Source: a virus
Strand: one strand, 5' to 3'
DNA: 52,073 bases
IMG/VR virus record: IMGVR_UViG_3300025141_015674
Location: 1 to 52,073 of that record
The translations under genes were made by a program, and so were the position numbers. The notes under the pieces were generated by a model. The model searched no databases, was not told where the DNA came from, and saw only the letters and a list, made by a program, of their open reading frames with translations. Position 1 is the first letter of the stretch, and each line of letters starts with the position of its first letter. Positions 1 through 25,968 of the stretch are shown one piece after another.

Positions 1-2
1 AA

Positions 3-410
3 AGTATAAAGCTTCTTAAGAAGGCAGGAATTGAAACTCGCATCTATATGATTATTGGTCTACCTGGAGAGCCACCGAACATTGTAGAACAAACTTGGTC
101 GTTTATACAAGAGACAAATCCAGATGCTGTATATTTGTCGCTTTTTACAGTTAGACCGGGAACCGCAGTTTATAACAATCCAAAAAAGTTTGGAATTAAA
201 GAGATTAAAACATCATGGGAAAATACTATGCATATGCACAGCAGGTACGAAAAAGAGATTCCAACTTTGACCTTTGAGTACGATGAAAATACGCCATGGG
301 GCGAAGGAGAGAAAAGTGAAATAATTGTTGACAATTATTTAAAACTTCAAGATCTTGTTAAGGCGCATGGATATGGACCCGTTGGTTACACCGATAAGGA
401 GAACAAATAA
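3..410 (+). CDS. B12-binding-type radical SAM protein, C-terminal part (5' cut by window edge)
   Basis: The open frame runs in from the left edge with no start codon in the window; about 135 residues remain. The visible part begins just before a 'YMIIGLPGE' strand and carries the 'RPGTAVY' strand. These are typical of the last barrel strands and C-terminal tail of Elp3/MiaB-fold radical SAM proteins that usually carry an N-terminal cobalamin-binding domain. The CxxxCxxC cluster motif and any B12 domain would lie upstream and cannot be checked. The stop overlaps the next ATG by one base, which implies translational coupling to the sugar dehydratase gene. Two full-length relatives follow in the same operon (2491-4521 and 9397-11274). 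The substrate is unknown; a role in sugar or lipid-linked glycan modification is inferred from neighbours only. Confidence 0.75.
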   Translation, partial: SIKLLKKAGIETRIYMIIGLPGEPPNIVEQTWSFIQETNPDAVYLSLFTVRPGTAVYNNPKKFGIKEIKTSWENTMHMHSRYEKEIPTLTFEYDENTPWGEGEKSEIIVDNYLKLQDLVKAHGYGPVGYTDKENK

Positions 411-1570
411 TGAATTTTAAATGGCCGTTAATTAATGACAATATTTCGCAAAAAGATAAAGAACACTTAGCAGAGTTTATTTTAAACAGTAATCGATTTA
501 CTAATGGACCAAAAGTTAAGGAATTTGAAGTTGCGTGGTCTAAGTGGCTTGGTGTAAAATACAGTGTGATGGTCAACTCAGGATCGTCTGTAAACTATAT
601 TTCTGCGGCAATTGTAAGAGAATTGAAGGGAAAAGGTGGCGAGGTTATTGTTCCCCCCATTGGATGGGTATCTTGTGTTTCTTCTGTAATTAACACAGGT
701 TTTACACCTGTTTTTGTGGATGTGGACCCACGATCTTTATCTATTTCTTATGAAAATATTGAGGCGGCAATAAACGAAAATACAAAAGCTATTGTTTTAG
801 TGCATTGTTTAGGTTTCAATGCAATAAACGAAAAGATTATTAAGCTTGCAAAAGAAAAAAACTTATTATTAATTGAGGATTGTTGTGAATCACACGGCGC
901 AGCTTATGATGGAAATAAAGTTGGTACTTTTGGAGATATGTCATGTTTTTCTTTTTATTTTGGACATCACATCACCACGATTGAAGGCGGTATTCTGTCC
1001 ACTAATGATTATCGTATTTATCAACTTGCTAAATTGTTTAGATCACATGGTATGACCCGTGAGGTTTCCAAGGAAGTACATGATAAATATTATGAATCTG
1101 ATTTAAATCCGTTATTTACATTTGCTGTACCTGGCTATAATATGCGTAGTACCGAGATAAATGCTGTATTGGGGCTAGAACAACTGACTCGTTTAGATTT
1201 CAATATCGAACAGAGAAGTAAAAATTTACATTTGTGGTTAAGCAATTTAAATCCTGAAATTTTTAGAACTGATTTTAATTTAGAGGGAAATAGTAGTTTT
1301 GCATTACCTTTAATATTAAAACAACAACACACAGAATTATTAAAAAAAGTTTGTGATATTTTGGAAGATGAGAATGTAGAATATCGCCTTGGAACCGCTG
1401 GTGGAGGGAATCAAGCACGACAACCATATTTAAAAAGGTATGAATTTATAATATCTAACAACTTAAATAATGCTGATTATATACACGAGAATGGTTTATA
1501 TATAGGAAATCACACTGAAATTACTGAGCAGCAATTAGTTCATCTATGTGAAAAATTAAATAATGTTTAA
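410..1570 (+). CDS. DegT/DnrJ-family PLP enzyme with Lys-to-His change; ColD-like sugar 3-dehydratase
   Basis: This 386-aa protein has the DegT/DnrJ/EryC1/StrS aminotransferase fold-type I layout. The N-terminal 'NRFTNGPKVKEFE' and 'VNSGSSVN' lead to the PLP-phosphate region; 'IEDCCESHGA' (residues 155-164) holds the Asp that pairs with the PLP ring. The segment that normally holds the Schiff-base lysine reads 'SFYFGHHITTIEGG' (residues 181-194), with His186/His187 where aminotransferases have Lys. Known enzymes with this substitution are the PLP-dependent 3-dehydratases ColD (GDP-4-keto-6-deoxymannose, colitose pathway, about 388 aa) and the CDP-hexose E1 enzymes; they remove the C3 hydroxyl instead of transaminating. 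The size matches ColD and there is no extra N-terminal FeS-binding part, so ColD is the better match. A GMD gene in the same operon could supply its substrate. Direct specificity is unproven. Confidence 0.85.
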   Translation: MNFKWPLINDNISQKDKEHLAEFILNSNRFTNGPKVKEFEVAWSKWLGVKYSVMVNSGSSVNYISAAIVRELKGKGGEVIVPPIGWVSCVSSVINTGFTPVFVDVDPRSLSISYENIEAAINENTKAIVLVHCLGFNAINEKIIKLAKEKNLLLIEDCCESHGAAYDGNKVGTFGDMSCFSFYFGHHITTIEGGILSTNDYRIYQLAKLFRSHGMTREVSKEVHDKYYESDLNPLFTFAVPGYNMRSTEINAVLGLEQLTRLDFNIEQRSKNLHLWLSNLNPEIFRTDFNLEGNSSFALPLILKQQHTELLKKVCDILEDENVEYRLGTAGGGNQARQPYLKRYEFIISNNLNNADYIHENGLYIGNHTEITEQQLVHLCEKLNNV

Positions 1571-2513
1571 AAATAAGAATGTTTTAGTTGCTGGTGGTGC
1601 GGGATTAATAGGGAGACAATTAATTGATCTTTTATTAGAAGAAGGCGCAAATGTATCGATAGCAGATTTAAAAAAGACATATATAGATGGGATACATGAA
1701 ATGTCCCTTGATTTAACCATTTATGATAATTGTTTGAAGGCATGTTATGAGATGGATTATGTTTTTAACTTGCTTTGTGTTAAAGGATCACCAAAGGCGA
1801 TGAAAGAAAGACCCGTTGATCATTTTGATTCGATGATTCTCTTTAATACAAATTTATTAAGAGCCGCCAAGCAATGTAATGTTAAACGATATTTATATGC
1901 CAGTACTTTAGGAGTTTATGCACCAGCAGATATTTTCTTTGAAGATGATGTATGGAAAACATTTCCTTCAAAAAATGATAGATTTGCTGGATGGGCTAAA
2001 CGAATGGGAGAATTACAAACCGAAGCATATAAAATACAATATAATTGGGAAAATATTTCAATAGTACGCCCAGCTAACACTTATGGTCCTTATGATGATT
2101 TTGATTCTGATGGAGCAATGGTGGTGCCTTCTCTAATCAAAAAAGTTATTAACAATAGAGAAAAGGTAGTGGTCTGGGGAGATGGATCAAATGTGCGAGA
2201 TTTTATACACAGCAAGGATGTTGCTAAGGGAATGATGCTTGTTATGGAAAAATCTCCCGGACCCTCTTTCCCCGTAAATTTGGGAAGTGGAAAGAGGCAC
2301 ACAATTAAAGAACTTCTTAATATTATAATGAAGAATACGGATAAAAATCCTGAAATTATATGGGATACTAATAAAATTGTGGGAGATAAAGTTAGAGTAT
2401 TGGATGTTCATCGGGCCAAGTCCTTGGGCTTCGAGCCAGAAATTTCATTAGAAGACGGGGTAAGTGGCCTAGTTAGATGGTACATTGATAATGAAGTCCT
2501 CAAAAAAAATTAA
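1563..2513 (+). CDS. NAD-dependent epimerase/dehydratase (extended SDR)
   Basis: This 316-aa extended short-chain dehydrogenase/reductase starts with a Rossmann motif 'VAGGAGLIGRQL' (residues 9-20). It has the 'RPANTYGPYDDFD' substrate-lobe motif and 'VVWGDGSNVRDFIH', typical of nucleotide-sugar epimerases. Ser114/Thr115 in 'YASTLGVYA' fit the catalytic Ser/Thr position. The usual YxxxK is replaced by 'FAGWAK' (residues 141-146): Lys146 is present but the position four before it is Ala142, with Phe141 beside it. I recall similar 'GWAKRMGE' sequences in bacterial surface-polysaccharide epimerases, so this may be a subfamily trait and not decay. The start overlaps the upstream gene by 8 bases. 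It probably acts on an NDP-4-keto-hexose made by neighbouring dehydratases; which nucleotide is unknown. Confidence 0.85.
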   Translation: MFKNKNVLVAGGAGLIGRQLIDLLLEEGANVSIADLKKTYIDGIHEMSLDLTIYDNCLKACYEMDYVFNLLCVKGSPKAMKERPVDHFDSMILFNTNLLRAAKQCNVKRYLYASTLGVYAPADIFFEDDVWKTFPSKNDRFAGWAKRMGELQTEAYKIQYNWENISIVRPANTYGPYDDFDSDGAMVVPSLIKKVINNREKVVVWGDGSNVRDFIHSKDVAKGMMLVMEKSPGPSFPVNLGSGKRHTIKELLNIIMKNTDKNPEIIWDTNKIVGDKVRVLDVHRAKSLGFEPEISLEDGVSGLVRWYIDNEVLKKN

Positions 2514-4521
2514 AGTAGGAACGATTCAGATCAACAATAGTTTTTCGGGCCAAAATTATTTGCCTCTTTCATTAGGATTTTTATATTCATATGCCAAGTT
2601 TCATGTTGGGGATATTGAAAATTTTGAATTTTTAAATCCCATTTATAAGAGAGTTAAGATTAAGGATGCAGTTGATTATCTCAAGGATGTAGATATTGCA
2701 GCGTTTAGTGTCTATGTATGGAATCATAATTTATCTTTAGAAATAGCTAAAGAACTTAAAAAAGTTAATCCCAGCTGTTTGATTATTTTTGGAGGTTGTC
2801 ATGTACCTGACAAGAATACAGCAGAATATTTTCAAAAGTATGATTTTATAGATATTGCAGCAATTGGAGAAGGAGAGAGGGTTTTTGCTTCTTTATTAGA
2901 AAATTTTTCTGAAAAGCGATGGGATTTGGTACCTTCCATAACTTATAAAGATAGTAACGGTAAAATAATTTCAAAACCTCAAGGTGAGAGAATTAAGGAT
3001 ATGAATGAGATTCCTTCTCCTTTCTTAGATGGATATTTTGATTCACTTATTGAAATGAATCCTGATGAAAAGTGGATAGGTTTGTGGGAAACAAATCGAG
3101 GGTGCCCATTTTCTTGCACTTTTTGTGATTGGGGAGTTGGATTTAAAAAGAAGGTGCAGAAATATAGTCTTGAAGATAGGCTCTTTTTAGAGGCTGATTG
3201 GTTTTCCGATAAGAAGATCGAATTTATATTTTGCTGTGATGCAAATTTTGGTATTTATAAAGAAAGAGATTTTGCAATTGCTAAAAGGTTTGCAGATAAT
3301 AAAAAAAAATATGGATATCCACACGCTTTATCTGTTCAAAATACGAAGAATAATTCGGACTCATCTTACGAAGTACAAAAGCTTCTATCAAAATCGGGAT
3401 TAAGCAAAGGTGTTAATATTGCATTTCAATCAATGCACAAACCTGCATTAGATGCTATCAAGAGGGGAAATATTCGATTGGCACCTTTTGTGGAGTTGCA
3501 AAGAAAATTTACAGATGATGGAGTTAAAACATTTTCGGATATGATTTTAGGTCTTCCTTTAGAGACTTACGAAAGTTTTTCTAAAGGTGTGTCCGATCTT
3601 ATAAAAATGGGCCAACATAATAGAATTCAATTTAATAACTTATCTATACTTCCAAACACCGAAATGGCAGAATTAGGTTATCTAAAGAAATACGGAATGG
3701 AGATAGTAGATAGTACCATCATTAATATTCATGGAAAAATAGAATCGGAAGAAGTCCCAGAAGTTCAACAAATGGTTATAGGAACAAATTCAATGCCTGG
3801 AGAAGAATGGGTAAAAACTAGGTCTTTTGGATATATGGTAGGCTTTTTACACTTTAACAAAATTTTTCAAATTCCTTTAATAATTGCAAATGCTGTTTTT
3901 GGTGTTGATTATGAAACTTTGTTCAATGGTTTTTTGGGAGAAAAATCAGATAATAAATCTGCTTTGTCAAAAATTAAACAACAATTTTTAAAACATTCTA
4001 GGGATATGCAGTCTGGTGGGCCTGAATTTGCTCCATCCAAAAAATGGCTAAATATTTGGTGGCCTCCAGATGAGTTAGCATTTATAAATGTTGTAACCAG
4101 TGGTGAAATAGATGAATTTTATAAAGATGCTAAAAATGTTTTGTATGAAATTTTGGATGATGCTGATGTTAAAGAATATGAAGATGTAATTTCTCAAGCA
4201 GTTGAATTGAATAAGAAATTAATAAAATTGCCTAATCAAAAAAATGATTGTAACATTACTTTGGATTACAATATTTGGGATGTTTATGATACTGTAATGA
4301 AAGGTGAAAACATTATTTTTTCTACTGGTAAATTTGAACATGTCATCGATAGAACTACTGAAACGTGGGGTTCTTGGGAAGAATGGTGTGAAAAAGTAGT
4401 GTGGTGGTGTAATAAAAAAGGTGCCTATCTTTATGAATGTATTACTAATGATGAAAAAATTATAATAGAAAGTAAAGAAATCAAAAAGGAGCCTTTCGGC
4501 AATGATGCAAGATATCAATAG
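2491..4521 (+). CDS. cobalamin-binding-type radical SAM enzyme
   Basis: This protein of about 676 aa has an N-terminal B12-binding-like Rossmann domain (roughly residues 5-145, with 'IIFGGCHVPDKNT' and 'IAAIGEGERVF') followed by a radical SAM barrel. The cluster motif is 'NRGCPFSCTFCDWG' (Cys205, Cys209, Cys212), and 'DMILGLPLETYESF' is the typical late-barrel strand. The long C-terminus (about 250 residues) is Trp- and Asp-rich and unrecognised. I prefer the ATG at 2491 over an upstream in-frame TTG at 2485; either overlaps the preceding gene. Family members do C-methylation, ring rearrangement, oxidation or epimerisation of sugars, lipids and antibiotics. I cannot pick a reaction. Its place between two nucleotide-sugar SDRs suggests a carbohydrate substrate. 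Confidence 0.85.
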   Translation: MKSSKKIKVGTIQINNSFSGQNYLPLSLGFLYSYAKFHVGDIENFEFLNPIYKRVKIKDAVDYLKDVDIAAFSVYVWNHNLSLEIAKELKKVNPSCLIIFGGCHVPDKNTAEYFQKYDFIDIAAIGEGERVFASLLENFSEKRWDLVPSITYKDSNGKIISKPQGERIKDMNEIPSPFLDGYFDSLIEMNPDEKWIGLWETNRGCPFSCTFCDWGVGFKKKVQKYSLEDRLFLEADWFSDKKIEFIFCCDANFGIYKERDFAIAKRFADNKKKYGYPHALSVQNTKNNSDSSYEVQKLLSKSGLSKGVNIAFQSMHKPALDAIKRGNIRLAPFVELQRKFTDDGVKTFSDMILGLPLETYESFSKGVSDLIKMGQHNRIQFNNLSILPNTEMAELGYLKKYGMEIVDSTIINIHGKIESEEVPEVQQMVIGTNSMPGEEWVKTRSFGYMVGFLHFNKIFQIPLIIANAVFGVDYETLFNGFLGEKSDNKSALSKIKQQFLKHSRDMQSGGPEFAPSKKWLNIWWPPDELAFINVVTSGEIDEFYKDAKNVLYEILDDADVKEYEDVISQAVELNKKLIKLPNQKNDCNITLDYNIWDVYDTVMKGENIIFSTGKFEHVIDRTTETWGSWEEWCEKVVWWCNKKGAYLYECITNDEKIIIESKEIKKEPFGNDARYQ

Positions 4522-5200
4522 TAATGTAATAATAACAGCATCAAGTAAGGGATTAGGATTTGCAATAGCTCAGAAATTTGCAGAAAATAATCATGGTATT
4601 ATTTTACATGGTCGTGATGCAAAAAAAATTCAAGAAGCTAAACAAAGCCTTAATAATGTAATATGCACAATTCAAGGAGATTTAAGAGAACAAATTACGA
4701 TTCAAAAAATATACGACAATGTGTTAGAATATGGTATCTCTATCCTTGTTAATAATGCAGCTATTCCCTGTTATGGTTTACCTCTTGCACAAATGTCTGT
4801 GGAACAGGTAAACGAAAGTATGATGACGAATTTGTTTTCTCCTATTTTTTTGTCTCATAAGCTTTATCCTGTTTTAAAGAAAAACAGCCCAGGTGGAATT
4901 ATAAATATTAATTCAATTGTAGGGCTAGAATCTAAGAAATACAGAAGCATACATTCTGCCACTAAATGGGGACTGAAGGGTTTTTCTAAAAGTTTAAGAA
5001 TAGAAGCAGCAGACGATAATATGAAAATTATGAATGTTTATCCAAGCAGAATTAGAACAGTAAAAGAATATACATATGGTTTAGATTCCTCATATGTTGC
5101 TGATTTGATTTATAAAGAATTTACTAAATCGAATGGTTTGGATGAACTCGTAATTGATGGAAGACCGCCGCAATTTAAACCTGTATTAAGTGAGAATTGA
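4502..5200 (+). CDS. classical short-chain dehydrogenase/reductase with altered catalytic Tyr
   Basis: This 232-aa classical SDR has the cofactor motif 'TASSKGLG' (residues 12-19, first Gly replaced by Ala), 'LVNNAA' (82-87), Ser138 in 'INSIVG', and Lys155 in 'HSATKWGLKGF'. The tetrad Tyr, four residues before the Lys, is His151 (codon CAT at about 4951). 'YPSRIRT' matches the usual PG-motif loop. An AAGGAG Shine-Dalgarno at 4486-4491 supports the first of two adjacent ATGs. The gene overlaps the upstream radical SAM gene by 20 bases. It could be a ketoreductase acting on a keto-sugar, but loss of Tyr would normally impair proton transfer, so either His substitutes or the protein has another role. 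A simple point change (TAT to CAT) is also possible. Confidence 0.85.
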   Translation: MMQDINSNVIITASSKGLGFAIAQKFAENNHGIILHGRDAKKIQEAKQSLNNVICTIQGDLREQITIQKIYDNVLEYGISILVNNAAIPCYGLPLAQMSVEQVNESMMTNLFSPIFLSHKLYPVLKKNSPGGIININSIVGLESKKYRSIHSATKWGLKGFSKSLRIEAADDNMKIMNVYPSRIRTVKEYTYGLDSSYVADLIYKEFTKSNGLDELVIDGRPPQFKPVLSEN

Positions 5201-5201
5201 G

Positions 5202-6167
5202 ATGAAAAAAATTTTGATTTGTGGAGCCACTGGATTTATTGGTAGAAATCTTTTAGATCATTATTATAAAAAAAAAGAATATAGTGTTAAAGCTACACAT
5301 TTTAAACGCCCCCCTTTAAGAGAATATGATGGGGTTGAATGGATTAATTGTGATTTAAGAAATGCAGAACATGCTAAAGAAGCTTTAAAAGGGGTAGATA
5401 TTATATTGCAGTTTGCTTCAACTACTAGCGGAGCAAAAGATATCGTATCAAAACCTTATATTCATGTGGCCGATAATGCGATAATGAATTCTATTCTATT
5501 AAGAGAGGCGTTTGAGCAGGGAATTGAGCACTTTATATTTCCTAGTTGTACAATTATGTATCAAAAATCACAAATAGCTCTTAAAGAATCTGATTTTGAT
5601 ATGGCAGATGAAATTCTCCCTTTTTATTTTGGAACTGGCCACACAAAGGTATATTTAGAAAATATGTGTAAGTTTTATGCTAGTTTGGGAAGAACGAAAC
5701 ATACAGCTATTAGACATTCAAATATGTATGGACCCTATGACAAATATGATTTAGAAAAGTCCCATGTATTCGGAGCAACTGTTACTAAAGTAATGAATTC
5801 AAATGATGGGAAAATTGTTGTATGGGGTACAGGAGAAGAAGCAAGAGATTTATTGTATGTAAAAGATTTGGTGCGCTTTGTAGATATTGCCATCAATAAA
5901 CAAGTAGAAAATTTTGAGCTTTTTAATGTGGGTTTGGGCAAAGGAATAAAGATTAAAGATTTGGTACAGAAGATTATTAAATGTTCCGGCAAGAAATTAG
6001 AAATTATACACGATTTATCAAAACCGACTATTCCCACATCTCTTTTCTTAGATTGTTCACATGTGAAAGAAAAGTTTGGATGGGAACCAATATATACGTT
6101 AGAAGAAGGAATTACCAAAACATTAAAGTGGTATGGAAATAATAATGTTAATACAAGAACAAATTAA
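5202..6167 (+). CDS. GDP-fucose-synthase-like NAD(P)-dependent epimerase/reductase
   Basis: This 321-aa extended SDR has the Rossmann motif 'GATGFIGRNL' (8-17), 'FPSCTIMY' (113-120), which resembles the Ser-Ser-Cys region of GDP-fucose synthase, 'RHSNMYGPYDKYD' and 'VVWGTGEEARDLLYV'. Lys149 sits in 'YFGTGHTKVY', but the Tyr expected four residues earlier is Thr145; Tyr142 is seven before it. I recall 'YFGxGxTKVYxE' in a group of surface-polysaccharide epimerases, so the shift may be normal for the group. I chose ATG 5202, directly after the upstream stop, over a GTG at 5190. ColC, which makes GDP-colitose after ColD, belongs to the GDP-fucose synthase family, so this gene or the 1563 gene is a candidate for that step. 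Specificity is inference. Confidence 0.83.
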   Translation: MKKILICGATGFIGRNLLDHYYKKKEYSVKATHFKRPPLREYDGVEWINCDLRNAEHAKEALKGVDIILQFASTTSGAKDIVSKPYIHVADNAIMNSILLREAFEQGIEHFIFPSCTIMYQKSQIALKESDFDMADEILPFYFGTGHTKVYLENMCKFYASLGRTKHTAIRHSNMYGPYDKYDLEKSHVFGATVTKVMNSNDGKIVVWGTGEEARDLLYVKDLVRFVDIAINKQVENFELFNVGLGKGIKIKDLVQKIIKCSGKKLEIIHDLSKPTIPTSLFLDCSHVKEKFGWEPIYTLEEGITKTLKWYGNNNVNTRTN

Positions 6168-6903
6168 TTTTTATAAAGAAAATGGTTATTTAATTGTTTC
6201 AAATATTTTTACTGATCAAGAAGCTAAAAAATATAACCAGTATATGAGAAGACATGCTAATAAAGATTTCGCGGCAATTGTGAACCCAGATCGTTATGAA
6301 GAACTTTATACTCAGGATGAAAGGGTTAAGTCAGATCTAACCGTGGAAGAAATCGCTGAGACTTCAGAGTTTTCGCAATATATTATGAAGCATCCAACTA
6401 TAGTTTCAATCTTGGAAACACTACAAGGAAGAGAAGTAGTTGGTTTAAGCAGTCAATTTATTTTTAAAGAAGCTTATTCACCATATTGCACTCAAGCTTG
6501 GCGACCGCATCAAGACGGATGGTATGTTGCAGATAGAAATGGCGAGTATATTACTACTAATTGGTTTTTAAGGGATGCTAATGTAGAAAACGGAACAATA
6601 TATGTATATGCTGGTAGTCATAAGGCAGGTTTAAAAAATGCACTACCCCAAAAGAGTTTTAGGGAAGATACAAATTCTAATCCGGGGAGTAAATGTACGA
6701 TTCCAGAAGAGTTTATTGATAAGAAAACTGATGTTATTATTCCGAAAAATTCTGTTGTTTTTCTTCATGGCCATTGCATACATGGGTCTTATTCAAATAA
6801 TTCAAATCGATCTCGACCATGGCATTCTTGTTGCTACATTTCAAAAGGTGAAGAATATTTAATAGGTAAAAATGCAAAAAGAAGAGATATCCCCTTAAGG
6901 TAG
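6145..6903 (+). CDS. PhyH-type Fe(II)/2-oxoglutarate dioxygenase
   Basis: This protein of about 252 aa resembles phytanoyl-CoA dioxygenases. It opens with 'INFYKENGYLIVSNIF', the usual N-terminal PhyH helix-strand. The iron facial triad is visible: His122 and Asp124 in 'RPHQDGWYV' and His213 in 'HGHCIHGSYSNNS'. Arg224, in 'SNRSRPW', lies 11 residues after the distal His, as expected for the 2-oxoglutarate-binding Arg. 'IYVYAGSHKAG' matches the conserved GSH strand. I use ATG 6145; an upstream ATG at 6133 would add four residues and overlap more of the preceding gene. PhyH enzymes hydroxylate small molecules, including sugars and secondary metabolites. Here a deoxysugar or glycan is the likely class of substrate by context only. 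Confidence 0.88.
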   Translation: MLIQEQINFYKENGYLIVSNIFTDQEAKKYNQYMRRHANKDFAAIVNPDRYEELYTQDERVKSDLTVEEIAETSEFSQYIMKHPTIVSILETLQGREVVGLSSQFIFKEAYSPYCTQAWRPHQDGWYVADRNGEYITTNWFLRDANVENGTIYVYAGSHKAGLKNALPQKSFREDTNSNPGSKCTIPEEFIDKKTDVIIPKNSVVFLHGHCIHGSYSNNSNRSRPWHSCCYISKGEEYLIGKNAKRRDIPLR

Positions 6904-6913
6904 TAAATATCAA

Positions 6914-7921
6914 ATGAGCAGCGCATTAATAACTGGGATTACGGGAATGGTGGGTTCTCATTTAGTTGATTTTCTTTTAGAAAATACTGATTGGGATATA
7001 TATGGGTTTTGTCGTTGGAATGACAATTTCGAAAACATTGATCACTTGTTTGATAAAATTAACAATAAGGAACGACTTCATTTGGTATATGGAGACTTAA
7101 ACGATTATGTCTCCTTGTTTACCGCGCTCCGCGATACTGCACCAGATTATGTTTTTCATCTGGCAGCTCAAAGTTATCCTAAAACCAGTTTTAATGCACC
7201 ACTCGAAACACTTCAAACCAATATAATTGGAACTGCAAACTTATTAGAAGCAATTAGATCTATCCAAATAGATCCCGTTATTCATGTTTGTGCTTCATCG
7301 GAAGTGTTTGGAAGGGTGTCCTATGATCAACTTCCCATAAAAGAAGACTGTACATTTCATCCAGCTTCACCATATGCAATTTCAAAAGTAGGAACGGATC
7401 TTTTGGGAAGGTATTATGGAGAAGCCTATAATATGAAAGTTATTACTACAAGAATGTTTACGCACACTGGTCCCCGAAGGGGAGATGTATTTGCCGAGTC
7501 TAGTTTTGCTAAACAAATTGCAATGATTGAAGCTGGAATCCAAAAACCAATTATTAAGGTTGGTAATTTAGATTCTTTAAGAACGTGGGCAGATGTCAGA
7601 GATGCCGTTCGTGCTTATTATATGCTTGTAACTATAAACCCACTTTCGGGTGAGTATTACAATATTGGAGGTAATTATACATGTAGTGTTGGCCAAATGT
7701 TAGAATTTTTAATAAGCCAATCAGCGCAAAACGATATAAAGGTAGAGGTGGAATCCGAGAGGTTACGTCCAATTGATGCCGACCTTCAAATACCCGATAC
7801 CACCAAGTTTAGAGAACATACTGGATGGGAGCCTAAAATAACATTTGAAGATACCATGAAAGATTTGTTGAGGTATTGGAGAAATAAAGTAAAAAATGAA
7901 AAAAAATTTATGGTAAGATAA
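6914..7921 (+). CDS. gmd: GDP-mannose 4,6-dehydratase
   Basis: This 335-aa extended SDR has 'ITGITGMVGSHL' (6-17), 'FHLAAQSYPKTSF' (81-93), 'CASSEVFG' (Ser128-Ser129-Glu130) and an intact 'YAISK' (Tyr154, Lys158). 'TRMFTHTGPRRGDVF' is the GMD-specific nucleotide-binding loop that distinguishes this family from dTDP-glucose dehydratases. The reaction is GDP-D-mannose to GDP-4-keto-6-deoxy-D-mannose, the branch point to fucose, rhamnose, perosamine and colitose. All catalytic residues are present and the length is normal. It is the likely feeder for the ColD-like and GFS-like genes upstream. A T4-like phage would take GDP-mannose from the host. Confidence 0.9.
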   Translation: MSSALITGITGMVGSHLVDFLLENTDWDIYGFCRWNDNFENIDHLFDKINNKERLHLVYGDLNDYVSLFTALRDTAPDYVFHLAAQSYPKTSFNAPLETLQTNIIGTANLLEAIRSIQIDPVIHVCASSEVFGRVSYDQLPIKEDCTFHPASPYAISKVGTDLLGRYYGEAYNMKVITTRMFTHTGPRRGDVFAESSFAKQIAMIEAGIQKPIIKVGNLDSLRTWADVRDAVRAYYMLVTINPLSGEYYNIGGNYTCSVGQMLEFLISQSAQNDIKVEVESERLRPIDADLQIPDTTKFREHTGWEPKITFEDTMKDLLRYWRNKVKNEKKFMVR

Positions 7922-7925
7922 AAAT

Positions 7926-9395
7926 ATGCTTTTTAAAGATAGTAAAAAAAGACAAGAAAAATCTAAAATGGAGAAGTTGGTAAAACAATATGGAACCAGT
8001 GCTTTTATGTACACACAATATCCCCATAAGAGATTTTGGAAAGAGAAAAAGAACGATGAGAAATATAGAGAAATTTTATCCTCGTTAGCAAATAGCGACA
8101 GGGCTGCGCCTGCATTACTTTATTTGCATATTCCTTATTGCAAACAGTTATGTTATTTTTGCACATGTCATATGGCAATCACCACTGAGCACAGTAAAGT
8201 AAAAGACTATATGAATCTTTTATATCAGGAAATCGACGCATTTGCTGAATTTATAACAGAAAACAATATTAAATTAAATATTAAAGAAATACATTTGGGT
8301 GGTGGATCGCCTACATTTATTGATATTCCAGAATTTGATATTTTGTGTGATAAATTAGGTAAGCTTACAAACTTAAAAGAGTTAGACGAGTTTGCGATTG
8401 AAGTTGATCCCCGCAGAGTAGAAAGGGAAAGACTTGAATATTATGGAAAGAAAGGAATAAACCGACTTTCATTTGGTATTCAAGATTTTGATATTAATGT
8501 TCAAACAGCGATAAATAGGATACAACCTGTTGAGTTAATTGAAAACTTGCTGACTCCTGAGATTAAAGATTTATTTACTAATGGAATTAATTTTGATATC
8601 ATTTGTGGACTTCCAAATCAAACGCCCGAGACAATAAAAATGACAGCGCAAGAATGTATTAGGTTATCTCCACATCGGATCTGTTTAAACTATCTTCATT
8701 ATTCACCTGTTTTCGCACCACATCAATTATTAATGATAGATGGAAACCAGGGCCGCCCCAATAATTTACCAGATTTTTTTGAAAGAAAAGTTTTATTTCA
8801 GACGGCGCAAGACACTTTAGAGAATGGTGGTTTTGTTAGAACCGGGTATGATCATTTTGCTAGGGCAGATGATAAAGTAGTTGAGGCTATGGATGATAAG
8901 AAAATGCATTGGAATTCTTTGGGCGTTACACCGGGAGAATATACTAACATTATAGGGTTGGGGATTAGTAGTGAATCTACCATTGGAGATTATTATTTTC
9001 AAAATCATTATGATATGCCCGATTATATTAGTTCGATAAAAAAAGGAGAATTTCCAATTTATCGCGAGCATCAATTATGCCAAGAAGATGTCATTCGCAA
9101 AGACACCATTCAGCAAATAAGAAATTATTTTGAAGTTGATCTTAACGAAATCTCTGCGCGATATAATATTAATAGCGAACAATATTTTCATGATGAATTG
9201 GTAAACATAAAAAGTTTAGAAAAAGATGATATACTAAGTTATGAAAATGGAGTTATTCGTTTAACAGAGATAGGAAGACAATTTACTAATATTGTATGTA
9301 GAACTTTTGATAAATATTATACTGGGTCACTTTTAAAACAGGATTTAGGTCAGAGAGACAATTATAAAAGTAGAAAATTAAAAGAAAGGGTATAA
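7926..9395 (+). CDS. HemN-like radical SAM protein (oxygen-independent coproporphyrinogen III oxidase family)
   Basis: This 489-aa protein follows the HemN plan closely. 'FMYTQYPHKRFW' (27-38) parallels the HemN 'RYTSYPTA' strand. 'YLHIPYCKQLCYFCTC' (66-81) gives the CxxxCxxCxC motif (Cys72, 76, 79 and the extra Cys81). Also seen are 'HLGGGSPTF', 'EVDPRR', 'INRLSFGIQDF', 'YDHFARADD' and 'NIIGLGISSESTIGDYY', each with a clear HemN counterpart. HemN converts coproporphyrinogen III to protoporphyrinogen IX without oxygen. Close relatives include HemW, heme-degrading ChuW/HutW and class C radical SAM methyltransferases. The extra Cys and the HFA motif favour HemN over HemW. Its place among glycan genes is odd for a heme enzyme, so a repurposed HemN-fold methylase cannot be excluded. 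Confidence 0.88.
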   Translation: MLFKDSKKRQEKSKMEKLVKQYGTSAFMYTQYPHKRFWKEKKNDEKYREILSSLANSDRAAPALLYLHIPYCKQLCYFCTCHMAITTEHSKVKDYMNLLYQEIDAFAEFITENNIKLNIKEIHLGGGSPTFIDIPEFDILCDKLGKLTNLKELDEFAIEVDPRRVERERLEYYGKKGINRLSFGIQDFDINVQTAINRIQPVELIENLLTPEIKDLFTNGINFDIICGLPNQTPETIKMTAQECIRLSPHRICLNYLHYSPVFAPHQLLMIDGNQGRPNNLPDFFERKVLFQTAQDTLENGGFVRTGYDHFARADDKVVEAMDDKKMHWNSLGVTPGEYTNIIGLGISSESTIGDYYFQNHYDMPDYISSIKKGEFPIYREHQLCQEDVIRKDTIQQIRNYFEVDLNEISARYNINSEQYFHDELVNIKSLEKDDILSYENGVIRLTEIGRQFTNIVCRTFDKYYTGSLLKQDLGQRDNYKSRKLKERV

Positions 9396-9396
9396 A

Positions 9397-11274
9397 ATGC
9401 CACCAGCAAAACTTAAAATTTTAACAACACAGGAACCATCTTCATCTCTTTCTGCGGATTTAATTTTTTCTAAGTTAAAAAAATCTTTTAAAGGGGGTTG
9501 TAAAAAAATATTGTTAATACAACCATTTCCTTTTAATTCTGAACATTTTGAAGTAAATCAAGCACTCAATAAACGATATTATAATTGGCCCCCATATGGA
9601 TTAGGAGTTTTGTGTAAAAATATTAAGAAAAGAGGATATGAAGCTAAAATATTAGATATGAATTTTGATGTGTTGACACATATTCAAGAACAATCCGAAA
9701 CTACAATGCCTGATGATGTATTAGCCAGAGACGAAATTAAAAAAATATGGCACAAAAAAACAGAATCTATGATTGAGGATTTTAAACCTGATTTAGTTGC
9801 TTTAACTTGTATGTTTACTATGGGTCATGAAATGTTAATAAGAATGGCAGATTTTATACGTAAAAATTTCCCAAATATTCCCATTATTGCTGGGGGAGTT
9901 CATATTACAAACGCCCCAGAATATGTGTTAAGAGAAGCACCAAGTTTAGATTTTGCTGGACTTTATGAGGGTGATGTAAGTTTTTGTGATATGTTAGATG
10001 TCATCAATAATAAGGCGAATATAGAAAAATTAAAACAAATTAGTACAATGATTGATGATGAATATTATGCTATATCTTCGCGCACGACGCCCAATTCAGA
10101 CGAACTTAATGTAATTCCTGATTATGATAATTTATCAATTGGAAATTATAGTGGATTAGGAGAGGTAGGTTCGTATAGATCTTGGCTTCCTGTTGACTTT
10201 CGTGGTGCATCAGTTTTATCAAATCGTGGATGCCGTGCTCGTTGTTCGTTTTGTAGCGTGAGAAATTTTAATGGAAAGAGCGTCAGACCAAGAGATGTAG
10301 ATTCTGTAGTTGAAGAAATAGAAGGCTTAGTTAAAGAACATCAAATTCAACATATTACTTGGATTGATGATGACCTTTTCTTCGATCAGAAAAGATCAAT
10401 TGAACTTTTTAATAAAATATCTGATAAAAAATTAGGTATTACTTGGTGTGCTTCGAACGGAATCATTGCTTCATCGGCTGCCAAATCTGAAGAGTTAATT
10501 GAAGCATCTGCAAGGTCGGGTTGTGTAGGCATGACCTTTGGATTAGAATCTGGAAGTGATAAGATATTGCTAGAAGTTCATAAACCTTCGCGTGTAGTAC
10601 ACTATTATAAGGTTGGAGAAATGCTTAAGAAATATCCACAAATTTTTACTCGTGGATTTTTGATTATTGGATTTCCAAAAGAAACCTTAAAACAGATGCT
10701 TGAAACTGTAAAAATGTCACAAGAGGTCGGCTTAGATTGGTATGGTGTCCAGCTGTTATCCCCACTCCCCTCCACCGAAATTTATGATACGATGGTAGAG
10801 CTTGGTTTAATTGACGATGTAACAATTAAAAAGAATAAGGATAAAGATGGTTCTAAATTATTTGTGGTTAGACAGGGGGAAAAACAAAGAGCAAAAGAAA
10901 AAGAACAAAAGAATAATGCTCAGAAATTTGTTAACCCATTTAGTGCAAAAAATCTCGATATAGTTCCATCGCGAGAAGAACTTCATGATATTTGGTTGTT
11001 GGTAGATTATTGGATTAATTATGAGCCAATTTTGTCTATGACTGATAAAAATCGTCTCTTAAAGAAACGAGCTATTCTTCGTGATATTTGTGACCGAATG
11101 ACGAAAAATAATCCAATATCTAATTTATTTTTAGGTATTGTCGAGGAAAAATTGGGAAATTCAAAAGAAGGACACTCAAGAAAAGAGTTGGCATTAAAAT
11201 ATTTATCTCAATCAGAATATTGGAAAAAACAATTTGAAGCTTTAGAGTTGCAACCTCTCATAAGTGTTGCTTAA
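9397..11274 (+). CDS. cobalamin-binding-type radical SAM enzyme
   Basis: This 625-aa protein has an N-terminal B12-binding-like domain (about 35-200: 'LIQPFPF', 'YGLGVLCKNIKKRGYEAKILDMN', 'PIIAGGVHITNAPEYVL'). The radical SAM barrel has 'NRGCRARCSFCSVRNF' (Cys279, Cys283, Cys286), 'WIDDDLFFD', 'MTFGLESGSDKIL' and 'FLIIGFPKETLKQM'. The region 475-525 is Lys/Glu/Gln-rich and probably a flexible linker before a helical C-terminus. No classical DxHxxG cobalamin motif is visible, which is common in this family. The gene starts one base after the upstream stop. It is a third B12-type radical SAM in the operon, distinct from the 2491 gene; the reaction is unknown. Confidence 0.87.
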   Translation: MPPAKLKILTTQEPSSSLSADLIFSKLKKSFKGGCKKILLIQPFPFNSEHFEVNQALNKRYYNWPPYGLGVLCKNIKKRGYEAKILDMNFDVLTHIQEQSETTMPDDVLARDEIKKIWHKKTESMIEDFKPDLVALTCMFTMGHEMLIRMADFIRKNFPNIPIIAGGVHITNAPEYVLREAPSLDFAGLYEGDVSFCDMLDVINNKANIEKLKQISTMIDDEYYAISSRTTPNSDELNVIPDYDNLSIGNYSGLGEVGSYRSWLPVDFRGASVLSNRGCRARCSFCSVRNFNGKSVRPRDVDSVVEEIEGLVKEHQIQHITWIDDDLFFDQKRSIELFNKISDKKLGITWCASNGIIASSAAKSEELIEASARSGCVGMTFGLESGSDKILLEVHKPSRVVHYYKVGEMLKKYPQIFTRGFLIIGFPKETLKQMLETVKMSQEVGLDWYGVQLLSPLPSTEIYDTMVELGLIDDVTIKKNKDKDGSKLFVVRQGEKQRAKEKEQKNNAQKFVNPFSAKNLDIVPSREELHDIWLLVDYWINYEPILSMTDKNRLLKKRAILRDICDRMTKNNPISNLFLGIVEEKLGNSKEGHSRKELALKYLSQSEYWKKQFEALELQPLISVA

Positions 11275-11280
11275 ATAAAA

Positions 11281-12015
11281 ATGGCAGATATATTAATTAT
11301 TGGAGAAACTTGTAAGGATATATTTGTCTATGGAGAATGTGATCGTTTATGTCCAGAAGCACCTGCACCAGTATTTAATCCTATAGAAGTTTTAGAAAAT
11401 CCTGGAATGGCCATGAATGTTCAGCGTAACGTAGTTAAACTGGGACAAAAGTGTCATATATACACTAACCCTAATTGGAAACATATTACAAAAACAAGAT
11501 ATGTTCACAAGAACACTAATCAAATGTTTGTAAGGGTAGACACTAATGATGATAAAATTGAAAGGTGTAAAGTGGAAAAAATTTCGTTTGAAAAGTATAA
11601 AATAATAATAATATCTGATTATTGTAAAGGGTTTCTAACAGAGGAAGATATTGCATATATAACACACAATCATAATTGTGTATTTTTAGATACGAAAAAA
11701 AGACTGGGGAAGTGGTGCGAAAAAGCATCTTTTATAAAAATTAATAATTATGAATCTGCGAAAACAGCACATACCATCCCAGATACAGTTAAAGACAAGA
11801 TGATAACGACTTTGGGCTCTAGAGGTTGTACGTTTAAAAATAAAATTTTTTCTGTTGAAGCGGTTGAGATAAAAGATGTGTCGGGGGCCGGAGATACTTT
11901 TTTGGCCGCTTTAGCGGTTAAATATGTAGAAACCGAAAATATTATAGAATCTATTAATTTTGCTAATACATGTGCAACTCAGGTTGTGCAAAAGCGCGGA
12001 GTTAGTACAGTATGA
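11281..12015 (+). CDS. PfkB-family sugar kinase, short HldE N-domain (RfaE1)-like
   Basis: This 244-aa protein resembles the kinase half of HldE. It has 'IIGETCKDIFVYGECDR' followed by 'LCPEAPAPVF' (23-32), which matches the HldE 'SPEAPVPV' signature, 'ISDYCKGFLT' (111-120) and the PfkB anion hole/catalytic loop 'DVSGAGDTFLAALA' (199-212, Asp205 the likely base). It is shorter than the usual 310-320 aa, with compression in the middle lid region. HldE phosphorylates D-glycero-D-manno-heptose 7-phosphate at C1. The stop overlaps the next ATG (ATGA), so kinase and nucleotidyltransferase are translationally coupled. The sugar could be a heptose or another sugar phosphate. Confidence 0.85.
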   Translation: MADILIIGETCKDIFVYGECDRLCPEAPAPVFNPIEVLENPGMAMNVQRNVVKLGQKCHIYTNPNWKHITKTRYVHKNTNQMFVRVDTNDDKIERCKVEKISFEKYKIIIISDYCKGFLTEEDIAYITHNHNCVFLDTKKRLGKWCEKASFIKINNYESAKTAHTIPDTVKDKMITTLGSRGCTFKNKIFSVEAVEIKDVSGAGDTFLAALAVKYVETENIIESINFANTCATQVVQKRGVSTV

Positions 12016-12413
12016 GGATAAAAAAAATAGTTTGGACAAATGGTTGTTTTGATATTTTACATCGAGGACATATGGAGCTTTTTAGGTGGGCTCATTCATT
12101 GGGCGATCAACTGATTGTGGGTGTTGACTCTGATGAAAAGGTCGAAAAAGATAAGGGGCCTGCCCGACCTTTTAATTGCTTGAATGATAGAATGTTCATG
12201 ATTGAGTCGTTGCGTTATGTTGACAAGGTTATTTCATTTAACACCAGGAAAGAATTAGAAAATTTAATAAAATCAATTGAACCTGATATACTCGTTGTTG
12301 GTTCAGATTGGCAAAACAAAGAAGTTGTTGGAAGACAATATGCAAAGAAAGTAAAATTTTTTAACAGAGTGGGGAACTATTCTACAACTAATATTTTGGA
12401 GAGAAAAAAATAA
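12012..12413 (+). CDS. cytidylyltransferase-fold nucleotidyltransferase, HldE C-domain (RfaE2)-like
   Basis: This 133-aa protein has 'WTNGCFDILHRGHMELF' with the HxGH nucleotide-binding motif at His17-His20, 'GVDSDEKVEKDKGPARPF' and 'DILVVGSDWQNKEVVG'. These are all standard for the HldE/RfaE2 adenylyltransferase domain and related glycerol-3-phosphate cytidylyltransferases. The motif 'STTNIL' near the C-terminus occupies the place of the usual SST(S/T)xI nucleotide-binding motif. Together with the preceding kinase it forms a two-gene version of bifunctional HldE, making an NDP-heptose-type sugar. The next gene, a HAD phosphatase, could remove the intermediate phosphate. Length is normal for the isolated domain. 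The NTP used is not deducible. Confidence 0.9.
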   Translation: MRIKKIVWTNGCFDILHRGHMELFRWAHSLGDQLIVGVDSDEKVEKDKGPARPFNCLNDRMFMIESLRYVDKVISFNTRKELENLIKSIEPDILVVGSDWQNKEVVGRQYAKKVKFFNRVGNYSTTNILERKK

Positions 12414-12734
12414 ATGATTTATGTTTTTGATATAGACGGAACAATTTGTAATAACACTTATGGTGATTATGACAATGCCGAGCCAAAGCTTGATAGAATT
12501 AAAAAAAACAATAAGTTGTATGATGATGGCAATACAATAATTTACCATACAGCGCGTGGAATGGGAAGAACCAATAACAATGTCATTAAAGCATATCAGA
12601 TATTTTACAATTACACCTCAAAACAGCTTGATCAGTGGGGCGTCAAATATCATGATTTATTTATGGGCAAACCTAATGGTGATATTTATATAGATGACAA
12701 AGGAATACGAGATGGTAACTTCTATACCTATTAA
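12414..12734 (+). CDS. small HAD-superfamily phosphatase
   Basis: This 106-aa protein starts with the HAD motif I 'FDIDGTIC' (Asp6, Asp8). It has Thr46 in 'YHTARGMGR' for motif II, and 'GKPNGDIYIDDKG' with Lys86 and Asp94-Asp95 for motifs III and IV. There is no cap domain and the length is at the lower limit for a HAD enzyme. Similar short HAD proteins occur in capsule and O-antigen clusters beside nucleotidyltransferases. In the HldE pathway a HAD phosphatase (GmhB) dephosphorylates the bisphosphate between the kinase and the nucleotidyltransferase steps, so this gene could fill that role, but it is much shorter than GmhB. It abuts the upstream stop with no spacer. Confidence 0.83.
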   Translation: MIYVFDIDGTICNNTYGDYDNAEPKLDRIKKNNKLYDDGNTIIYHTARGMGRTNNNVIKAYQIFYNYTSKQLDQWGVKYHDLFMGKPNGDIYIDDKGIRDGNFYTY

Positions 12735-13071
12735 ATTTGTTTCCAAAGGATGGGGTTTTGAAAAATGGATTGTTAATTGTGAACAATATTGTGGGAAACT
12801 TTTATATTTTGTAAAAGGAAAAAAATGTTCCTGGCATTATCACAAGATAAAGGATGAAGTGTTTTATATTCAAAGTGGAAAAATTTTGTTAAGGTATTCT
12901 CAGAAGGATGATTTAAAAATGGCTAATGTCACTATTCTGGAAAAGGGAGATCATTTTCATGTTACCACGGGATTACGTCATCAAATGGAAGCTTTGGAAG
13001 ATACAGAATTATTTGAATTTTCAACACAACATTTTGATAGTGACTCTCATAGGATTATAAAAGGAGATTAG
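12712..13071 (+). CDS. single-domain cupin
   Basis: This 119-aa beta-barrel cupin has 'CSWHYHKIKDEVFYIQSG' (residues 39-56), which supplies His42, His44 and Glu49 as metal ligands, and 'TTGLRHQMEAL' supplies His90. I chose ATG 12712 over the upstream ATG 12694 because an AAAGGA Shine-Dalgarno lies at 12699-12704, seven bases before it; it still overlaps the HAD gene by 23 bases. Such cupins in glycan clusters act as sugar-phosphate isomerases, NDP-keto-sugar isomerases or epimerases, or as sugar sensors. The short length and mannose-6-phosphate-isomerase-like cupin motif fit but do not prove an isomerase. Confidence 0.82.
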   Translation: MVTSIPIKFVSKGWGFEKWIVNCEQYCGKLLYFVKGKKCSWHYHKIKDEVFYIQSGKILLRYSQKDDLKMANVTILEKGDHFHVTTGLRHQMEALEDTELFEFSTQHFDSDSHRIIKGD

Positions 13072-14037
13072 ATGAAATTAGTTGTGATAACAGGATGTTT
13101 AGGGTTTATTGGTTCACACATAACACGTCTATGCCTTGAAAATAGATGGAAAGTGCTTGGAATAGATAAATGTACTTATGCAGCCAATGAAGGATTACTT
13201 ACAGAGTTTAATGCACATAAAAATTTTACTTTTTTAAAAGAAGATATTTGTAATCTTAAATTTTTGCCCGATTGTGATTATGTTATTAATACAGCAGCCG
13301 AAACTCATGTTGGCAACAGCATCATTGATAGTTCAGACTTTGTTAGAAGCAATATCGATGGAGTTAAAAATTTATTGGAACTCATTCGTCATAAACCAGA
13401 AAATGTATCACAAAAGCCAATTTTATTTCATATTAGCACTGATGAAGTTTATGGAGATATAGCGTTCAACAAACATATGGAAACTGATTTATTAAACCCA
13501 AGTAATCCTTATTCGGCTTCGAAAGCTGCGGCGGATTTGCTTATTACGGCATGGTCAAGGACTTATGGGGTTGATTATATTATTTTGCGACCCACAAATA
13601 ATTATGGCATTGGTCAATATCCTGAAAAATTTATTCCTTTAAGTGTTAAGGCACTTCTGCGTAATAAAAAAATTCGCCTTCATGATGCGGGAATGCCTGT
13701 TCGTAATTGGCTTCATGCCAAAGATACAGCATTGGGAGTTGCAAAGATTATTAATGCGGGCGTCATAAATGAAGTTTATAATATTTCTGGTGGTTTTGAA
13801 CAGCAGAATATTGACACAGTTAAACAAATCATTAATTGTTATTATAATAATGACGGTGATAAAGAATATGAACAATGGAAAGAATTATTAAATTTAGATT
13901 ATATGCGTCCTGGGCAAGATGTTCGATATGCTCTTGATGATAGCAAATTGAAAAATTTGGGTTGGAGCCCTAAGTATCAATTTAGCGAAGAAATAAATAC
14001 GATAGTTCAATTTTATAAAAATAATTTTAGATGGTAA
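13072..14037 (+). CDS. dTDP-glucose 4,6-dehydratase-like SDR
   Basis: This 321-aa extended SDR has 'ITGCLGFIGSHI' (6-17), 'NTAAETHVGNSI' (73-84), 'HISTDEVYGDI' (120-130, with the Thr-Asp-Glu triad of 4,6-dehydratases), 'NPYSASKAAADLL' (Tyr147, Lys151) and 'RPTNNYGIGQYPEKFIP'. These are hallmarks of RmlB and close paralogues. It would oxidise C4 and remove the C5-C6 hydroxyl from an NDP-hexose. The family also contains enzymes acting on UDP or CDP sugars, so dTDP-glucose is the likeliest but not certain substrate. Unlike three upstream SDRs, its active site is fully canonical. It is the last gene of the glycan operon; the next, phage-type gene starts 13 bases later on the same strand. Confidence 0.87.
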   Translation: MKLVVITGCLGFIGSHITRLCLENRWKVLGIDKCTYAANEGLLTEFNAHKNFTFLKEDICNLKFLPDCDYVINTAAETHVGNSIIDSSDFVRSNIDGVKNLLELIRHKPENVSQKPILFHISTDEVYGDIAFNKHMETDLLNPSNPYSASKAAADLLITAWSRTYGVDYIILRPTNNYGIGQYPEKFIPLSVKALLRNKKIRLHDAGMPVRNWLHAKDTALGVAKIINAGVINEVYNISGGFEQQNIDTVKQIINCYYNNDGDKEYEQWKELLNLDYMRPGQDVRYALDDSKLKNLGWSPKYQFSEEINTIVQFYKNNFRW

Positions 14038-14050
14038 AAGGAGAATAAAG

Positions 14051-14242
14051 ATGAAATTATCAAATCAAGCAATTGGAGCCATAATGATGGCTCTTCAAAA
14101 AGGAATTATGGAACAACTGGACATTACGGAAGTGCTTCAAAATTTTACTATAATAGAGACCGAGGAAGGTCTGATGGTGGAAAATCCACCAATTCTTGAT
14201 GCATTCGATCCCACAGAGGAAGAATCATCACCGGCTTCATAG
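14051..14242 (+). CDS. small conserved-type phage protein, unknown function
   Basis: This 63-aa acidic protein begins 'MKLSNQAIGAIMMALQKG' and ends in a Glu/Ser/Pro-rich tail. A clear AAGGAG Shine-Dalgarno (about 14038-14043) precedes the ATG. I recall small proteins with a very similar opening (MKLSN..IGA..MALQ) in T4-like marine cyanophages, always unassigned. It marks the shift from the glycan operon to core phage genes. Predicted secondary structure is a helix followed by a strand and disorder. No function is proposed. Confidence 0.75.
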   Translation: MKLSNQAIGAIMMALQKGIMEQLDITEVLQNFTIIETEEGLMVENPPILDAFDPTEEESSPAS

Positions 14243-14512
14243 ATGCCCAAGTATGTTTATCATTGTAAAGAATGTGGTGAGGATTTTATGGCAAAACATT
14301 CTTTAAAAGAAGTAGTAGAAATATGCCATCTTTGCGGCACGACAACTCAACCAATACGACGACCTTCTACTATTTTTTTAAACAAAAAAAACGATAATAT
14401 AGAGACAAAATTGAAGGTTGGGAGCGTTGTGAAAGAAACGATTGAATCTGTGCGAGAAGAACTTAGAACAGAACAAGAACGTTTAACCAAGAGGGAATAT
14501 AATAATGAATGA
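14243..14512 (+). CDS. FmdB-type zinc-ribbon protein
   Basis: This 89-aa protein starts immediately after the previous stop. 'MPKYVYHCKECGEDFM' and 'CHLCG' give two CxxC knuckles (Cys8, Cys11, Cys28, Cys31), the layout of FmdB/CxxC_CxxC_SSSS zinc ribbons. Residues 55-86 form a charged helix likely to be a coiled coil. FmdB-like proteins were first proposed as regulators, but function is unproven. In this phage it lies three genes before the late sigma factor. A nucleic-acid-binding or transcription accessory role is possible. Confidence 0.82.
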   Translation: MPKYVYHCKECGEDFMAKHSLKEVVEICHLCGTTTQPIRRPSTIFLNKKNDNIETKLKVGSVVKETIESVREELRTEQERLTKREYNNE

Positions 14513-25942: not shown

Positions 25943-25968
25943 TTATTTGATAAAGAGAGGAACTTTAA

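Follow-up and report, generated by a model that had tools for sequence, protein, structure and literature searches.

The IMG/VR virus record IMGVR_UViG_3300025141_015674, analysed over its whole length as a linear window of 52,073 bases, carries in its left arm a cluster of sugar-nucleotide genes that is a native part of a T4-related phage genome. The cluster (positions 3-14037; Table 1) consists of 14 complete genes (g2 to g15) and one truncated gene (g1), all on the plus strand, with spacings of -41 to +13 bases between open reading frames (ORFs) and a final gap of 13 bases between 14037 and the phage gene p1 at 14051. A preliminary description of this DNA had reported a run of about 15 genes on one strand ending within 13 bases of phage genes, which stands except that one of the genes is a fragment. 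With moderate confidence, we explain the run as a resident phage cluster that makes a GDP-deoxyheptose, which would be transferred in the cytoplasm to an acceptor, likely the lipopolysaccharide (LPS) of the host. The left arm would then be the downstream part of a glycan-synthesis cluster in a contractile-tailed relative of T4; the corresponding clusters of related contigs have 20 to 40 genes.

Residence of the cluster in a phage genome

The cluster is native to the phage, because related contigs repeat it against the same phage genes. The preliminary description had likewise taken it for a part of the phage and not for a host-contig artefact. The cluster directly abuts p1, the zinc-ribbon gene, p3 and gp55 in contigs G001 (52 kb), found by a scan with g10, and G002 (82.6 kb) and G003 (59.8 kb), both found by a scan with a full-length radical S-adenosylmethionine (SAM) protein. 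The preliminary description had suggested a search of related phage genomes for the same gene order; L118 keeps the window layout g8-g11-g12/g13-g14-g15-p1-p2-p3-gp55 with the exact g15/phage junction, its g15 showing about 65% protein identity. In G017 (186 kb), the cluster spans 40,559-66,200 (25.6 kb) between a nuclease gene and p1, and the contig also encodes terminase, portal, sheath, tape measure, DNA polymerase and ribonucleotide reductase (RNR) outside it. At the ends of G017, 485 bases are repeated at 90% inside a repeat-rich stretch, which does not prove the contig complete. The cluster varies at its end: g15 occurs there in the window, L118 and G017 but is missing from G002, and homologues of g13-g14 lie upstream in G001, at the opposite end of the cluster.

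That the window was assembled chimerically, or that it joins a surface-polysaccharide locus of a bacterium to a phage contig, deserves almost no credence. IMG/VR contigs are metagenomic, bases 1-427 may be a chimeric edge, and G002 and G003, with 99.98% identity over 56 kb, may derive from repeated assembly of a single sample. Nevertheless, the same junction occurs in contigs whose proteins at this place are only about 40-65% identical to those of the window. Phage genes flank the cluster on both sides in G002, where PhoH and a nuclease form the left boundary, and in G017, and the G+C content of cluster and phage arm move together (0.33 vs 0.38 in the window, 0.36 vs 0.41 in G001, 0.42 vs 0.46 in G002). 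The replicated junctions by themselves already refute a chimera for the cluster; together with the two-sided phage flanks and the G+C content tracking each phage, they rule out a chimera or host contig.

A second contig group (G006, G007, G009) contains a related cluster in longer runs of about 35-40 genes. G007 and G009 are of phage origin, because T4-type DNA polymerase, RNR, clamp and PhoH genes are present: both carry the polymerase, and clamp, RNR or PhoH genes were also found in the group. Searches for gp23 and gp6 in this group (G004-G013) returned nothing and were uninformative. The named relatives nearest to the phage arm are Flavobacterium phage immuto and Microcystis phage Mel-JY01, along with an uncultured 484-kb phage record; in the regions viewed near the gp55, gp25 and gp6 genes of immuto and Mel-JY01, no sugar cluster is annotated. 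A single scan of genome contigs with the alignment of rSAM1, the full-length form of g1, returned only three loci at 26-27% identity, and no bacterial donor or host was found.

Compared with their counterparts in G001, the cluster proteins of the window show 50-75% identity; synonymous sites have almost reached saturation, and the non-synonymous divergence of 0.15-0.42 is lower than or similar to that of structural genes. A 2010 comparison of cyanophage genomes left open whether such genes are functional or stuffer DNA (PMC3037559). The conservation of amino acids despite near-saturated synonymous sites, and the retention of a core module across tens of viral contigs, argue against the stuffer view. 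The exception is g1, whose DNA is 99.3% identical to that of G001. For bases 1-427, two phages may have recombined recently at the g1/g2 boundary, or the contig may be chimeric at this edge. The main conclusion does not depend on this edge, because G001 shares the gene order around g1, as does G002 except for the insertion of one epimerase gene.

Table 1. Features of the window, with positions, strand and assignment
Feature	Position	Strand	Assignment and remarks
G001-like stretch	1-427		About 99% identity to contig G001, about 70% beyond; breakpoint between 331 and 428
g1	3-410	+	C-terminal 135 residues of a B12-binding radical SAM protein (rSAM1); truncated by contig end
g2	410-1570	+	DegT-fold pyridoxal phosphate (PLP) enzyme, C3-dehydratase (ColD) type; PF01041; His in place of PLP lysine
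g3	1563-2513	+	Extended short-chain dehydrogenase/reductase (SDR), GDP-L-fucose synthase nearest; candidate C4 reductase/epimerase; no Tyr at usual YxxxK spacing
g4	2485-4521	+	B12-binding radical SAM enzyme, nearest KedN5-type C-methyltransferases, below family cut-off; TTG at 2485 as uncertain start codon
g5	4502-5200	+	Classical short-chain dehydrogenase; PF00106
g6	5190-6167	+	Extended SDR, GDP-L-fucose synthase/GalE nearest; no Tyr at K-4
g7	6133-6903	+	Fe(II)/2-oxoglutarate dioxygenase, PhyH family; PF05721
g8	6914-7921	+	Nucleoside diphosphate (NDP)-sugar 4,6-dehydratase, GDP-D-glycero-D-manno-heptose type; PDB 7us5 match
g9	7926-9395	+	HemN-type radical SAM (oxygen-independent coproporphyrinogen III oxidase family); CxxxCxxCxC
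g10	9397-11274	+	B12-binding radical SAM enzyme, class uncertain
g11	11281-12015	+	PfkB kinase, like HldE kinase domain
g12	12012-12413	+	Nucleotidyltransferase like HldE C-domain; fused to g13 in L015 and L118
g13	12414-12734	+	Small HAD-like protein, from sequence motif and fusion only; no Pfam match
g14	12694-13071	+	Cupin; PF07883
g15	13072-14037	+	dTDP-glucose 4,6-dehydratase (RmlB)-like; 298.6 bits vs cut-off 365.1; same position in L118, G017
Junction of sugar cluster and phage arm	14038-14050		GGAG ribosome-binding site for p1; same junction in L118, G017
Phage arm start	14051-15525	+	p1, zinc-ribbon protein, membrane protein p3, gp55-like late sigma factor
gp25 and gp6	25553-27771	+	Baseplate wedge genes (T4-type)

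A likely GDP-deoxyheptose pathway

The enzyme classes named in the preliminary description, namely 4,6-dehydratases, a PLP enzyme, epimerases, a dioxygenase and an HldE-like set, find support in Pfam. The cluster matches a DegT/PLP enzyme, four extended SDRs (two of the 4,6-dehydratase type), one classical SDR, a PhyH dioxygenase, a PfkB kinase, a CTP_transf-like nucleotidyltransferase, a cupin and three radical SAM proteins, of which two also contain a B12-binding domain. Since E-values reach about 1e-79 and homologous gene runs occur in many further contigs, this content is far beyond chance.

The substrate class is suggested by g8, which matches the GDP-D-glycero-D-manno-heptose 4,6-dehydratase of PDB 7us5 with 380 bits (9e-113), compared to 169 bits (2e-48) for the GDP-mannose dehydratase 1db3. 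The best PDB match of g2 is ColD (2gms, 1e-63), with the histidine that replaces the PLP lysine aligned, in keeping with the 3-dehydratase type to which it had been assigned at the outset; GHH or AHH at this histidine is conserved in every readable orthologue above 45% identity. Just before the g2 homologue, G002 encodes an epimerase that scores 172 bits (8e-50) against the GDP-4-keto-lyxo-heptose 3,5-epimerases (8db5) and 87 bits (2e-23) against RmlC. Because g8 is of the heptose type, g2 has the C3-dehydratase histidine, and relatives encode both a GDP-heptose epimerase and a pair of thiamine-enzyme subunits (E1-alpha and E1-beta), a GDP-3,6-dideoxyheptose is a likely product. In broader terms, judged from the sequence, the cluster most likely makes a GDP-activated 6-deoxy- or 3,6-dideoxyheptose, perhaps with a two-carbon branch.

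An ordinary colitose-like GDP-deoxyhexose pathway, with GDP-mannose as the substrate of g8 and with g2 as a ColD for the hexose, would agree with ColD being the best solved relative of g2 and with Pfam and NCBIfam naming g8 after GDP-mannose dehydratase. We consider it improbable, given the much higher score of g8 to the GDP-heptose enzyme, the neighbouring epimerase of the relatives, which is heptose-type by a wide margin, and the presence of HldE-like genes.

For the heptose pathway, we infer the following steps. g8 would dehydrate GDP-glycero-manno-heptose to a 4-keto-6-deoxy sugar, g2 would take away the hydroxyl at C3, C5 would be inverted by an RmlC-like heptose epimerase whose gene lies upstream in relatives, and the SDRs g3, g5 and g6 would complete the sugar. 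The B12-radical SAM enzymes and the PhyH dioxygenase might tailor it, for example by methylation or hydroxylation. In the capsule pathways of Campylobacter jejuni HS:5 and HS:11, a 4,6-dehydratase, a C3-dehydratase, an epimerase and a C4-reductase make GDP-3,6-dideoxyheptoses (PMC10440746). The GDP-heptose 4,6-dehydratase and the PLP C3-dehydratase of this pathway have counterparts in the window and the RmlC-like epimerase in relatives; for the C4-reductase, the window offers only the candidates g3 and g6. Unlike the C. jejuni pathway, the present one is phage-borne, has the extra E1 pair (in relatives), radical SAM and PhyH enzymes, and contains an HldE-like kinase and transferase instead of HddA/HddC (PMC10680097).

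Several points weigh against such a pathway. The epimerase, the E1 pair and the glycosyltransferases are all absent from the window, and for these steps we draw on relatives. g11 and g12 resemble the kinase and transferase domains of HldE, both below the family cut-offs, and g13 resembles a small HAD phosphatase. HldE makes ADP-sugars, whereas g8 should use GDP-heptose. An HddA/HddC route to GDP-heptose was not found in the window, where the HldE-like g11 and g12 stand instead; the remainder may be encoded beyond the ends of the window or by the host. The Fcl-like g3 and g6 are no more than candidates for the C4-reductase, as both lack the tyrosine at K-4. In place of the canonical YxxxK spacing they have FAGWAK/YGGWAK and YFGxGxTK, which are conserved across phage orthologues, and by these motifs their reaction may be unusual. 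Finally, g9 scores as HemN and may be unrelated to the sugar.

The four radical SAM enzymes of the preliminary description are present as genes, but one of them, g1, is only the contig-edge fragment and another is the HemN-like g9. g1 by itself has no Pfam match, but a full-length homologue from a related contig ends in a sequence 98.5% identical to it; of the full-length homologues (L005:603-1946 and L015:10001-11344), both contain CxxxCxxC, and the latter has the Pfam B12-binding and Radical_SAM domains. g4 scores 248.3 bits against the KedN5-type family, whose cut-off is 700, and g10 has weak matches to several classes of B12 radical SAM enzymes. g9 reaches 336.9 bits against NCBIfam hemN, above the cut-off of 324.95, and its alignment to E. 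coli HemN (PDB 1olt, 4e-69) spans the full length. It is a real possibility, though one we hold to be doubtful, that part of the run is unrelated cargo, with g9 a working HemN for low-oxygen haem synthesis and the radical SAM genes separate insertions. Besides the HemN score and the retained CxxxCxxCxC motif, the restriction of close g9 homologues to the window and G001 in a scan of viral contigs speaks for it. However, g9 sits without gaps between sugar genes and moves with g10, the pair lying after g8 in the window and before g8 in G001, and other radical functions are possible among HemN relatives.

The E1-alpha and E1-beta genes lie just upstream of the g2 homologue in relatives, outside the window. 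A scan with E1-beta returned 50 viral contig loci, and the core recurs in tens of viral contigs: E1-alpha was found in 49/50, a DJ-1-like gene in 47/50, a cupin (cupin2) in 45/50, a g2-type enzyme in 43/50, the heptose-type epimerase in 35/50, g3 in 29/50 and g8 in 25/50, all of them minimum counts owing to limited flanks. The E1-alpha/beta pairs of antibiotic pathways attach branches of two carbons, derived from pyruvate, to keto sugars; for some pairs this is backed by knockouts, feeding and in vitro experiments (PMC12247030), and for others it has been proposed (PMC4753412, PMC10338323). By this analogy, the pair of the relatives probably adds a two-carbon branch to the keto sugar, and a C2-branched dideoxyheptose is our best guess for the core product. 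As in the alpha-KADH2 enzymes (AviB1/B2, Pau11/12, kibdelomycin KbDH-alpha/beta), a two-subunit thiamine pair stands beside a deoxy-keto-sugar pathway (PMC12247030, PMC4753412); those enzymes are known in antibiotic producers, whereas the phage pair, a candidate for this activity, lies beside a heptose pathway. An unannotated conserved protein of about 138 residues was also seen in 30/50 of the E1-beta loci, mostly at 70-80% identity; it occurs in G001, G002, G006, G007, G009 and G017 (e.g. L014:1832-2251).

Probable transfer of the sugar and its possible acceptors

No glycosyltransferase was found among the cluster genes of the window, as had been noted before; the cluster is truncated here by the contig end. 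The preliminary description had proposed to look further to the left for glycosyltransferases and flippases. Followed through the relatives, this revealed upstream glycosyltransferases of several families (GT1/GT4, GT2, GT10-like and GT11) but no flippase: Wzx was absent from 17 related contigs in two search sets. Hydropathy showed no multi-pass membrane protein in any cluster examined, although the same measure flags phage membrane proteins such as p3. Because neither a flippase nor a multi-pass membrane protein was found, transfer of the sugar is probably cytosolic. The phage glycosyltransferases encoded upstream would transfer it in the cytoplasm, most likely to an LPS core or O-chain precursor of the host, and host machinery would flip the modified precursors. 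The modified surface of the infected cell would putatively block superinfection. Host LPS is favoured as acceptor because such a role has been proposed for these genes in marine phages (PMC7029224, PMC7824862).

Chief among the other possible acceptors are virion proteins. The same cluster might place its glycan on the phage's own virion proteins, e.g. the giant baseplate/tail proteins, or on its DNA, and not on the host surface. The clusters encode no flippase, polymerase or multi-pass membrane protein, in keeping with a cytosolic acceptor, and the 2710- and 3439-residue proteins of the structural region could carry glycans. Yet LPS-core glycosyltransferases are also soluble and rely on a host flippase, so that the absence of a flippase is not decisive; against DNA, no gene of the thymidylate synthase/hydroxymethylase family (PF00303) was found in 11 related contigs, mostly fragments. 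We regard a virion or DNA target as unlikely.

The two giant ORFs lie at 17405-25537 and 29300-39619, beside gp25/gp6, and probably encode baseplate or tail proteins; G017 has ORFs of about 2900 residues at the matching places. The gp55-like late sigma factor is a weak match (phrog_234, 9.5e-5). Neither TATAAATA nor ATAAATA was enriched in the late-promoter test and sigma-70-like sites were at chance level, which gave no indication of the timing of expression. No tRNA genes were found in its 52,073 bases.

Some further observations were made in related contigs. G017 and G002 encode phage tmRNA genes (Rfam RF00023; L168:4567-4878 and L017:14295-14651, respectively), whose tag peptides, ANDNVTFDYALAA and ANDNVEFDYALAA, are a possible clue to the host. 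Near the cluster of G002, a phage gene (L017:13087-14238) has a weak tubulin/FtsZ-like match (1.5e-4, under the Pfam cut-off). In the second group, with G006, G007 and G009 (L106-L113), G009 has a Nol-like carbamoyltransferase. The variable upstream cassette of G017 (L169:4624-13796) holds UDP-GlcNAc 2-epimerase, UDP-glucose dehydrogenase-type, GT11, FkbM methyltransferase and NAD-synthase-like genes.

Comparison with sugar clusters of other phages

The preliminary description had judged the run far beyond the sugar genes usual in T4-like phages. This was overstated: P-SSM2 has a 15-gene cluster (PMC7824862), large LPS clusters are found in P-SSM2 and S-SSM7 (PMC3037559), and SynMITS9220M01 has about 25 contiguous sugar genes, including heptose genes and a g8 homologue at 52%. 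The T4-like cyanophage clusters (P-SSM2, S-SSM7, S-SM2 and SynMITS9220M01) are likewise one-strand runs of 15-25 genes, with NAD-dependent epimerases/dehydratases, a PfkB kinase, a HIGH-type nucleotidyltransferase, cupins and glycosyltransferases in common (PMC7824862, PMC3037559). The window shares with the P-SSM2 type a contiguous, phage-flanked run with epimerase/dehydratase paralogues (one to four being looked for), PfkB, a HIGH-superfamily nucleotidyltransferase and a cupin (PMC7824862). Unlike these clusters, it belongs to another phage lineage (nearest immuto and Mel-JY01) and has B12-radical SAM enzymes and HemN. Pelagimyophages, which are marine T4-like phages, have glycosyltransferases, rfaE and radical SAM cassettes in host-recognition clusters; unlike in the window, these genes lie within the host-recognition region or in groups of two or three, and no pathway has been resolved (PMC7029224).

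Among 50,697 named phage records, there was no match to E1-beta, no close relative of g4 or g10, and no phage HemN at the level of g9, the best matches being Salmonella/E. coli-type HemN in bacterial or short unannotated records. The g2-type enzyme was found there only in ACG-2014f, at 39%. Large sugar clusters are known in ocean phages; this proposed heptose pathway with its radical enzymes has not been described for a phage.

Tentatively, we propose that a widespread group of aquatic phages may encode a near-complete pathway to a branched 3,6-dideoxyheptose (4-C-acetyl or hydroxyethyl, tailored by B12-radical SAM and PhyH enzymes), together with glycosyltransferases. If so, infected cells or virions would bear a previously undescribed sugar, made only under phage direction. 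The products of marine-phage sugar clusters are not known; in this case the enzyme families indicate a single class of product, which is accessible to tests in vitro. With their radical SAM, HemN and thiamine enzymes, these phages are also a source of uncharacterised sugar chemistry.

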